Of a stretch of 64,000 nucleotides of DNA, positions 56,060 through 57,381 are shown piece by piece; the stretch's first letter is position 1; every line of letters begins with the position of its first letter. The DNA is from Bacteroidales bacterium (GTDB lineage: Bacteria > Bacteroidota > Bacteroidia > Bacteroidales > UBA932), in NCBI GenBank assembly GCA_017519865.1, contig JAFWRQ010000023.1, positions 1 through 64,000 on the forward strand, read 5' to 3'. Under the pieces are notes generated by a model that saw nothing but the letters and a program-made list of their open reading frames with translations, made no database searches and was not told the DNA's origin. The position numbers and the translations under genes were made by a program.

Positions 56060-56162
56060 AAGCACAAATAGGGCTGTTTTGTGCTTGTTTTCCGTCAGGA
56101 TAAGCACAGAACCATTGTTTTTGTTCTTATTTGGCTGTTGGAAGCCCGAAATAAGAACAAAA
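56060..56162. repeat. Palindromes on the 3' side of the RAYT-like gene
   Basis: AAGCACAAA (56060-56068) pairs with TTTGTGCTT (56078-56086). A half copy AGCACAGAA follows at 56103-56111. Then TTTTGTTCTTATTT (56119-56132) pairs perfectly with AAATAAGAACAAAA (56149-56162). Both palindromes share the core AAGMACA and GGCTGTT-like loops. The 56001-56059 and 56163-56222 stretches show nothing else. Confidence 0.8.
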
Positions 56163-56222
56163 TGACCCTTTCTGTTCTTCGAATTCCTTCATGGGCCGGA
56201 GGGGACGTCCGACAGGGGTTCG

Positions 56223-57170
56223 TTACTGGAACAGACCGCGCAGCAGACCCGGGTCCAGCTTCAGAAAGCGGATAATCTGCTTGTCGCTGGCGTTGTAGTC
56301 GAAGTGCATCCTCCTGGCAATGTCCGTCTTACCGTCCTTCGGGAGCATGGAGGGGGCGGCGACTCCGTAGAGGGTCCTGCACAGGTTGACGACAACGGTA
56401 TACAATTCATTGTCCGTGTACATTATCCTGTCCCCGAACTCTTTGGCGGCGCGCCGTTGCCCGTCCGTGTCCCTCGAGATGGCGTGGAAATAATGGTGGG
56501 CATCCCTGAACAAGGCTTCTGCTTCTTGAATGTGGCAGCACTCCAGTGGGGAGACATACCCGTCTATCATCGCGAGCCCGGCATTACTGTCAAACTCCCT
56601 GGTGTGGAAACACGTCCAGATGTCCCTGACTTTGAGTCTTGTTTCACTCCGTTCATGCTCTCTCTTTGCGTAACGGTTGAAAAAGAATCGGTTGGCTCCC
56701 CAGGGATAAGTATATGGCGTCTCCATTTCGTTGACCAGGAATCCGTTGCGGTTGTTGTACGCGATTACGCTCCTTATGTCTTTCAGGTCGCCGATCAGCC
56801 GCAACTGACAGGTCCATGACCGGAGTGAGACGCTCCTTCCCTTAAACTGCAGGTATCGTTCAAGTAGCCGGGACAGTTTCTTGAAGAACAGCCTGATGTC
56901 CTCCTCTTCCCCTGCCAGCGTAGCGTGGAGATGGTTGTTCATCCACTCGAATGTAAGTACCTTGATGCCTGGGAAAGACAATGCACAAAGGGCGAACAGG
57001 GTCATCCCGGCACGGAATTCATCCTCATTTGAGAAAATGATTTCGAAGTCTTCCGGCGTATAGAGGTGCCAGCAATGTCCCAGTCTTCTGAAATGGTACT
57101 CGCATAGGGACTCGGCCTCCTGGAAGGACCGCCGTTCCTTGTCTTCCTGAAATTGTCTCATCGTTTTCAT
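56223..57170 (-). CDS. RAYT-like single-tyrosine HUH transposase
   Basis: 315 residues, related to the Y1 (IS200/REP-associated) transposase superfamily. The HUH metal motif is NNHLHATL (H80, H82) in a strand after KVLTFEWM, where typical members read MPNHVHLL. The likely catalytic tyrosine is Y138 in SVIAYNNRNGF, matching the position of the YxxxNP segment of RAYTs. PYTYPWGANRFFFN downstream is a feature I associate with a Bacteroidales subgroup. The C-terminal ~120 residues (DKQIIRFLKLDPGLLRGLF) may form a DNA-binding helix-turn-helix. It has a promoter box at 57195-57202. Domestication (REP dispersal) rather than self-transposition is the usual state of this family. Confidence 0.78.
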   Translation of the reverse strand: MKTMRQFQEDKERRSFQEAESLCEYHFRRLGHCWHLYTPEDFEIIFSNEDEFRAGMTLFALCALSFPGIKVLTFEWMNNHLHATLAGEEEDIRLFFKKLSRLLERYLQFKGRSVSLRSWTCQLRLIGDLKDIRSVIAYNNRNGFLVNEMETPYTYPWGANRFFFNRYAKREHERSETRLKVRDIWTCFHTREFDSNAGLAMIDGYVSPLECCHIQEAEALFRDAHHYFHAISRDTDGQRRAAKEFGDRIMYTDNELYTVVVNLCRTLYGVAAPSMLPKDGKTDIARRMHFDYNASDKQIIRFLKLDPGLLRGLFQ

Positions 57171-57194
57171 AGTTGTCGGTTATATGGTTCAGGC

Positions 57195-57202
57195 CAAAGA
57201 TA
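57195..57202 (-). promoter_or_regulatory. -7 promoter box for the RAYT-like gene
   Basis: TATCTTTG on the minus strand, 24 bp before the ATG at 57170. Confidence 0.55.
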
Positions 57203-57261
57203 AGGAATAAGACGTCCGACCTTCGATAGATTCATATTTTTTTTGAAAATACCCCCCGAAA

Positions 57262-57381
57262 AAGAACAGATCAGGCAGATTTGTTCTTATTTCAGCTTGC
57301 GCAGAGCGGAAAAAGAACAAACCGGGGCTTGTTGTGCTTTATTTAAACAACAACAAGCACAGAAGACGCTGTTCTGTGCTT
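57262..57381. repeat. Palindromes on the 5' side of the RAYT-like gene
   Basis: Four nested or adjacent hairpins: AAGAACA/TGTTCTT (57262-57268, 57282-57288); TTTGTTCTT/AAGAACAAA (57280-57288, 57313-57321); GCTTGTTGT/ACAACAAGC (57327-57335, 57350-57358); AAGCACAGAA/TTCTGTGCTT (57355-57364, 57372-57381). The arms use the same AAGMACA core as the copies beyond the gene's 3' end. Confidence 0.8.

Follow-up and report, generated by a model that had tools for sequence, protein, structure and literature searches.

A probable RAYT-type HUH/Y1 transposase family of Bacteroidales and its enzyme-linked palindrome arrays

Results

Six palindromes flank a single gene

The window (the whole stretch of 64,000 nucleotides of Bacteroidales DNA that was analysed) contains a gene for a 315-aa protein flanked by six 27-nt palindromes of the form AAGMACA-N13-TGTKCTT, three per side, whose outer limits are exactly 56060–57381 (Table 1). 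With up to two mismatches allowed, six such palindromes were found in the window against a chance mean of 0.30 and a largest shuffle count of 2. A preceding sequence-only reading had described at least two palindromes on one side of the gene and four on the other; the flanking copies are real, while the full-length ones divide three plus three. Its statement that both core variants occur on both sides holds, the order being C/C, C/A, A/A, gene, A/A, A/C, C/C, with linkers mirrored about the gene. Matching of core types across linkers was considered as a rule and rejected: it holds by eye for four of four linkers in the window, but arrays in a related genome (G081, below) break the pattern. A search against Rfam returned two matches only, both under the gathering score, and no known RNA.

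Table 1. Features of the transposase locus, with positions in the window
Feature	Position	Strand	Basis or observation
Palindrome 1, type C/C	56060..56086		Folds alone at -7.0 kcal/mol (DNA parameters), z -3.7
Linker, 15 nt (centre-to-centre 42)	56087..56101		Sequence
Palindrome 2, type C/A, one arm mismatch	56102..56128		Alone z -0.5, no better than shuffles
Linker, 24 nt (centre-to-centre 51)	56129..56152		Sequence
Palindrome 3, type A/A	56153..56179		z -2.1; 9/200 shuffles fold equally well
Doublet, 78 nt, can form one long REPIN-like hairpin	56102..56179		-16.7 kcal/mol, z -5.3
RAYT-like HUH/Y1 protein, 315 aa	56223..57170	minus	ORF and family homology
HLH (HUH) motif, H80 and H82	56925..56933	minus	Both H invariant, 84/84
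Y138 and N142 (Y---N, then G in the window protein)	56745..56759	minus	Both invariant, 84/84
C-terminal domain, residues 170-315	56226..56663	minus	Without significant Pfam or PDB sequence match
Palindrome 4, type A/A	57262..57288		z -5.7
Linker, 24 nt	57289..57312		Sequence
Palindrome 5, type A/C, one arm mismatch	57313..57339		Alone z 0.4, no better than shuffles
Linker, 15 nt	57340..57354		Sequence
Palindrome 6, type C/C	57355..57381		z -4.2

Folded alone and compared with shuffled sequences, three of the six palindromes are clearly better (z -3.7 to -5.7) and one moderately so; the two mixed-type palindromes fold no better than shuffles, which counts against the reading proposed in the Discussion. 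The doublet at 56102–56179 can fold as one long hairpin, whereas its counterpart on the other side (57262–57339) does so weakly (z -2.5). With one 24-nt linker per side, the window holds too few linkers to tell direct from inverted order.

The enzyme has a RAYT-homologous Y1 domain and an additional C-terminal domain

The sequence-only reading had likened the protein to REP-associated tyrosine transposases (RAYTs), assigning an HUH motif to H80 and H82 and a candidate catalytic tyrosine to Y138. The residues lie where it put them: H80, H82, Y138, and N142 are conserved without exception across 84 family members, a set made up of the window gene, its six own-genome paralogues, and the better-scoring members among the matches listed in 200 relatives. 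N142 is followed by G in 54 of these proteins, the window protein among them, by A in 13, and by P in 7. The canonical Y---NP motif is usually absent, and two of the seven members with P are distant paralogues within the window genome.

Taken alone, the window protein gave no convincing match to a Pfam, NCBIfam, or PHROGs family and none, by sequence, to a solved structure; it is the family profile, not this protein by itself, that places the HUH motif and catalytic tyrosine in a RAYT-homologous Y1 domain. Across 69 members, the NCBIfam model REP_Tyr_transpos matches 13 (best E 1.4e-6) and Pfam Y1_Tnp matches 25 (best E 1.2e-5), the window protein matching neither, while the NCBIfam IS200 model fits three. 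Profile–profile comparison with eight shorter Bacteroidota Y1 proteins (183–239 aa), themselves found through a match to the window-enzyme family, gave a probability of 98.8 and E 6e-17 over residues 29–169; these relatives match the N-terminal part only, and five of the six scanned pass the Pfam Y1_Tnp cut-off. Together with the dispersed, enzyme-linked palindromes described below, this homology of the catalytic domain bears out the RAYT-like reading.

The C-terminal portion (residues 170–315, about 145 aa) has no significant Pfam or PDB sequence match, nor did any Pfam helix-turn-helix (HTH) model match it in 16 members. By eye, its end reads like an HTH, and 16 aligned members share invariant positions there (K112, Y123, A125, Q129, R132, and L134). 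The family evolves under purifying selection, with dN/dS of about 0.04–0.25 in the eight close pairs with finite dS out of nine computed; dS is saturated between the window enzyme and that of G081. PADLOC found no defence-system match in the three family members scanned.

The family is frequent in one Bacteroidales family and occurs as divergent paralogues

Among the matches listed, members of the enzyme family occur in at least 102 of 200 relatives, all from a single genus out of 80 sampled. When the taxonomic family was sampled, the family model matched 262 of 398 genomes at E 1e-10. A more cautious figure is 239, because 23 genomes match no more strongly than shorter RAYT-like proteins do (best E weaker than 1e-20; these include all listed genomes of genus g281). 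In a class-wide sample, 11 of 394 other genomes match, over the N-terminal part of the model only. Source records describe uncultured Bacteroidales, most of which, to judge by isolate name, come from the rumen, other parts of the gut, or horse faeces; some go under the names Candidatus Cryptobacteroides, Cacconaster, and Egerieousia. The system is thus larger than first described from the window, being frequent in one Bacteroidales family. A relative of 45% identity is encoded on the 39.7-kb IMG/VR contig L185, which may be a phage or a misassigned piece of chromosome; it is the sole relative found there by two peptide patterns.

The window genome (G000) encodes seven members, the best paralogue being 49% identical to the window enzyme. 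Each of the three nearest paralogues (49, 47, and 34% identical) is flanked by a different palindrome (GGGMGCR..., GGGCCC..., and GTGTGCA..., respectively), 27 nt wide by eye, although nested widths of 29, 25, and 25 were returned by the automatic search. When up to two mismatches are allowed, the GTGTGCA... palindrome recurs at 14 places in the genome and its control at one; the three sites inspected away from the gene are all intergenic by frame reading. Three distant paralogues (L056, L057, and L016; 21% identical) have one, one, and two hairpin copies beside them rather than 51-nt arrays, and two of the three carry the canonical Y---NP. Outside the family, the short Bacteroidota RAYT-like genes L236 and L240 have flanking palindromes of the CAAGGTTTTGAAAACCTTG type.

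Flanking arrays share one plan, one register, and a direct order

Palindromes were sought automatically up to 450 nt from the gene in 122 loci, including those with a flank truncated by a contig end: the first 84 and additions from 73 further loci, of which 28 were already in the set, one (L175, broken) was dropped, and six partial matches (L177, L179, L180, L181, L183, and L184) were left out. At least three copies of one palindrome lie beside the gene in 80 of the 122, and on both sides in 68, as against 0 of 610 dinucleotide shuffles and 2 of 91 flanks taken at least 900 nt away. The other 42 loci have no three palindromes, which counts against the proposed reading. Of 267 intervals between adjacent copies, 190 measure 51 nt, 32 measure 50 nt, and 27 measure 52 nt, so that 249 fall within 50–52 nt; eight more lie near 102, 153, or 204 nt. 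The largest arrays reach 15 copies beside one gene.

The units follow a common plan of arm, A-tract, short G/C-rich centre, T-tract, and complementary arm. Positions 8–14 from the centre pair in 0.69–0.96 of units, compared with 0.26–0.39 when partners are drawn from another locus; pairing and arm conservation are partly built in, because units were picked by arm pairing. Within loci (n = 63), variation is 0.03 at arm positions 10–12, 0.39–0.45 at the centre, and about 0.5 in linkers: the arm is nearly fixed, and centre and linker vary as if unconstrained. A canonical REP with a GTAG or CGTC tag was rejected, no tetranucleotide being conserved at the foot over the family: GT[AG]G occurs at 38 of 830 feet versus 83 of 830 in shuffles, and in at least half of the units at 6 of 80 loci, and CGTC at 57 versus 45 in shuffles of the same 830 feet.

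Linkers within one flank resemble each other directly (0.72) rather than as reverse complements (0.31; 276 pairs), and the arrays on the two sides of the gene, upstream and downstream, run the same way in 37 of 47 loci and in opposite directions in 10. The gene therefore usually sits in a lattice of direct repeats, unlike the arrangement in BIMEs, and the direct likeness of linkers led us to reject a BIME-type alternating inverted order for the family. The BIME-like pairing of substrates suggested from the window is right in part only: the first doublet folds into a strong hairpin and the second into a weak one, and the units of the family are direct repeats.

Arm sequence usually follows the enzyme

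Greedy grouping yields about 30 arm types among the 80 loci. At least six of seven arm bases are common in 17 of 18 enzyme pairs that are at least 70% identical, a count of pairs and not of independent events. The share of pairs with a common arm is 24% of 41 at 60–70% enzyme identity and 10% of 91 at 50–60%, near background, and enzyme identity is correlated with arm likeness overall (Mantel r 0.25, p 0.0005). The correspondence is not a strict one: one group with CGGGAGC arms keeps its arm at 56–60% enzyme identity, some enzymes at 65% identity differ in arm, and genome G021 has an AAGMACA arm, with a loop two bases longer, beside an enzyme only 36% identical to that of the window. The palindrome family thus appears usually to be specific to its enzyme and to co-vary with it, with these exceptions.

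Paralogues within one genome have similar arms in 1 of 33 pairs. Avoidance of shared arms among such paralogues was considered and rejected, since this frequency is not below the 3–10% background of pairs under 60% identity. Within the protein, local identity at residues 171–200 and 251–280 is correlated with similarity of the arms (r as high as 0.39, against a 95% permutation limit of 0.27). Negative correlations of equal size also occur, so that these segments are at most hinted to be candidate arm readers.

The same palindrome is dispersed in the genomes that carry close enzymes

The AAGMACA palindrome had been expected to recur across the genome and to track the transposase, and both expectations were borne out. 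In G000 (2.1-Mb assembly, 75% complete), 13 exact copies lie in four places (six at the gene, four on contig C12, one on C21, and two on C37), against none for the reversed control. Allowing one mismatch adds the neighbours C21:821, C21:914, and C37:5649 to these arrays; allowing two gives 35 places versus 14 for the control, so that the excess shrinks and the control is no longer empty. The three places away from the gene are intergenic, as judged from plain frame lists with small overlapping frames (roughly 100–180 aa) disregarded. Among 200 genomes, clusters occur in two only, G000 and G081 (20 exact copies), the two whose enzymes are 67–100% identical to the window enzyme, that of G081 (67%) being the closest among the matches listed. 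Isolated hits (one or two) occur in 13 other genomes, and the reversed control gives one hit in each of eight genomes.

Several of these arrays lie upstream of genes. Possibly, then, the protein could act as a regulator of duplex DNA, its HTH-like C-terminal end binding the palindromes as operators and each paralogue governing a regulon of its own; 7-bp palindromic half-sites at a fixed 27-nt width resemble dimer operators, and the invariant positions at the C-terminal end would suit such a role. We regard this as unlikely, since H80, H82, and Y138 are nuclease residues that a regulator would not need to keep in 84 of 84 members, and since arrays are also found between convergent genes (L221), inside a coding frame, and in up to 15 copies beside one gene.

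The coding-frame case is a ComF-like gene of G081 (L222 1636–2811), in which an array with five recognised palindromes lies in one frame, 51 nt being equal to 17 codons. The linker that holds the array is 149 residues long, against 14–64 in 23 other loci. No other ComF locus among the best 30 matches contains three such palindromes; of these 30, two lack the motif and one a usable start, and both linker ends were found in 23. Downstream of the ComF-like gene (L222 2880–3483), a second repeat with a 51-nt period and another arm overlaps a 287-nt repeat.

The gene is stable in place while arrays and spacing change

In three species, represented by G000, G081, and RUG470, the gene lies between the same neighbours. 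Proteins named from a reading of their sequences as ThiL-like and PadR-like are 88–91% identical and the PspC-like one 72–74%, compared with 67–68% for the transposase, which points to a gene that is vertically inherited and fast-evolving. At L113 and L114, the RUG470 and G081 gene bodies are 96–100% identical; from about 100 nt inside the start leftwards through the spacer, identity drops abruptly to 44–58%, with arms and 51-nt spacing still kept in the left flank. This drop has the appearance of a replacement or recombination edge.

The stability of the locus bears on whether the gene and its palindromes are an intact insertion sequence of the IS200/IS605 type, with the palindromes as its ends. 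Such elements (ISDra2, IS608) have an HUH/Y1 catalytic core and hairpin substrates, the latter putative in the window family, and their two ends lie in same-strand orientation, much as the flanking hairpins do in 37 of 47 loci; a profile match to the ISDra2-type transposase chain 2xm3 (E 0.0011) points the same way. The window gene, unlike them, is not multicopy, is stable in place, and has several hairpins per side. There is one copy per type, no paralogue in the genome exceeds 49% identity, the gene keeps its place in three species, and REP_Tyr_transpos fits more members than the IS200 model does. An intact element is therefore highly improbable, and we rejected it on the grounds of single copy and synteny.

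Two dispersed arrays occupy the same sites in G000 and G081, with arms mostly kept, loops and linkers different, and, at the truB-like site, a copy number of four versus three. In eight hand-picked pairs of orthologous palindromes, 110 of 112 arm positions are alike but only 19 of 56 centre positions; this set excludes a third pair at the purA site, in which visual comparison shows agreement at about 11 of 14 arm positions, and also the gene's downstream array. The TruB-like protein of G000 (L014 4472–5536) has a Ser/Pro-rich stretch with, by eye, a repeat of about 12 residues, and in G081 an unrelated stretch. Two further G081 arrays were sought in G000 and gave no clean empty site, which counts against the proposed reading. 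For C1:441178, the aligned blocks are separated by 23 bases in G000 and by 915 in G081, so that G000 is missing the whole 0.9-kb spacer; for C1:405036, G000 has the two sides on separate contigs, with the gene end followed by a different hairpin.

Ordinary terminators or structural repeats, expanded by replication slippage and merely hitch-hiking with the enzyme, would be another origin for such arrays. Tandem arrays can grow in this way, some neighbouring 51-nt units are nearly identical, and both terminator-like matches of the region overlap palindromes, but these matches are at chance level (two found, mean 1.9). Slippage neither carries arrays to other loci nor keeps arms while loops and linkers vary freely, and same-genome paralogues mostly differ in their arms where close orthologues share them. 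This explanation is very improbable.

Spacing has changed between the species. Every one of the five G000 arrays (on C12, C19, C21, and C37, with the two gene flanks counted apart) alternates between 51 and 42 nt (6 and 5 intervals). Spacing is 51 or 52 nt in 21 of 23 G081 intervals and a multiple of 51 in the other two, and it is 51 or 52 nt beside the RUG470 gene. Copies with one mismatch are counted here, and the 11 arrays of G081 are those other than the ComF array and isolated hits. Alignment shows the spacing gap at two sites common to G000 and G081. That several arrays have changed together suggests that the resident enzyme sets the spacing, but selection and re-seeding are indistinguishable here.

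Discussion

We propose, as the probable explanation, that the window gene, inherited vertically and present in single copy, encodes a RAYT-type HUH/Y1 transposase that acts on single-stranded DNA and has its own 27-nt palindrome as substrate. The enzyme should act on hairpins, because it is homologous to RAYTs, which cut single-stranded REPs in the one biochemical comparison, of three enzyme–REP pairs, given in the available part of PMC8266576. When the region is single-stranded, as on the lagging strand, each palindrome would fold into a hairpin with a stem of about 10 bp and a loop of about 7 nt. Probably acting as a dimer, the enzyme would recognise its own 5–7 bp arm and cut near the foot through Y138, and rejoining of ends at equivalent places would allow units to be lost, duplicated, or moved by one repeat (51 nt). 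Equivalent cuts, one marked by each hairpin, would account for both the strict register and the direct order. The arm would serve as an identity tag that changes with a diverging enzyme lineage, while plan and 51-nt register stay. The substrate, the cleavage, the dimer, the unit-wise mobility, and any role of the C-terminal domain are what we infer from homology and from the arrangement of the repeats.

We found no description of this enzyme family in the open-access literature. The 2018 classification of TnpA-Y1 proteins (PMC6006769, as far as its available text goes) already assigns to every enzyme a repeat family of its own, so that the window system is a variant of the RAYT/REP theme. Its closest counterpart there is the Bacteroidetes subclass 2.6, which comprises short RAYTs with a listed length of 179 aa and atypical palindromes. 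Phylum, an NH[LIV]H motif, atypical flanking palindromes without GT[AG]G, and copies elsewhere in the genome are common to both. The window enzyme differs in its length (315 versus about 179 aa) and added C-terminal domain, and its family in having P after N142 in only 7 of 84 members and in its tandem direct 51-nt arrays. In the abstract of the same paper, large C-terminal domains are tied to subclasses without REPs; the window family joins such a domain to flanking palindromes, two features listed apart in the portion of that source available to us. TIRYT subclass 2.1, which has a DnaA-like or HTH C-terminal domain, likewise contains long proteins, and the C-terminal region of the window enzyme looks DNA-binding by eye. 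By the available account (PMC6006769), no REP-like structures lie beside subclass 2.1 genes, unlike those of the window family, which is also without a Pfam HTH match in 16 members.

The RAYTs of REPIN and BIME systems in enterobacteria, pseudomonads, and stenotrophomonads resemble the window family, according to the parts of PMC3116915, PMC2817692, and PMC8266576 at hand, in having a palindrome family for each RAYT that co-evolves with it, a gene that changes faster than its neighbours, and doublets that can form hairpins; fast evolution and vertical inheritance of RAYT genes are reported in PMC2817692. The window family departs from those systems in its lack of a GTAG tag, its direct order, and a register fixed at 51 nt over many arm types. 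The tens to hundreds of REPs of the RAYT papers also contrast with 13–20 exact copies in G000 and G081, which counts against our reading. Repeats with CGTC are described in five phyla, including Bacteroidetes, in the available part of PMC3733652.

A more specific scheme is conceivable, though we hold it with considerable doubt: the family may consist of mutually specific single-strand recombinases in which recognition is divided, the HUH core taking the shared plan (A-tract, G/C centre, and 51-nt register) and the C-terminal domain the private 7-bp arm. Direct-repeat arrays would then be addressable sites at which 51-nt units are excised, added, or carried elsewhere, even in frame into genes. 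Were this true, the change from 51/51 to 51/42 in the five G000 arrays would be the work of the resident enzyme acting in trans.

The family bears on the choice of palindromes by RAYTs, and on how enzyme and target can change in step without parting. It offers a natural panel of about 30 arm types with one plan and one spacing, in which enzyme pairs range from less than 30% to 99% identity, and which could be used to find the residues that read the arm and to test whether RAYTs move repeats. With many enzyme–palindrome pairs in related bacteria, the evolution of enzyme–target pairs becomes directly testable.
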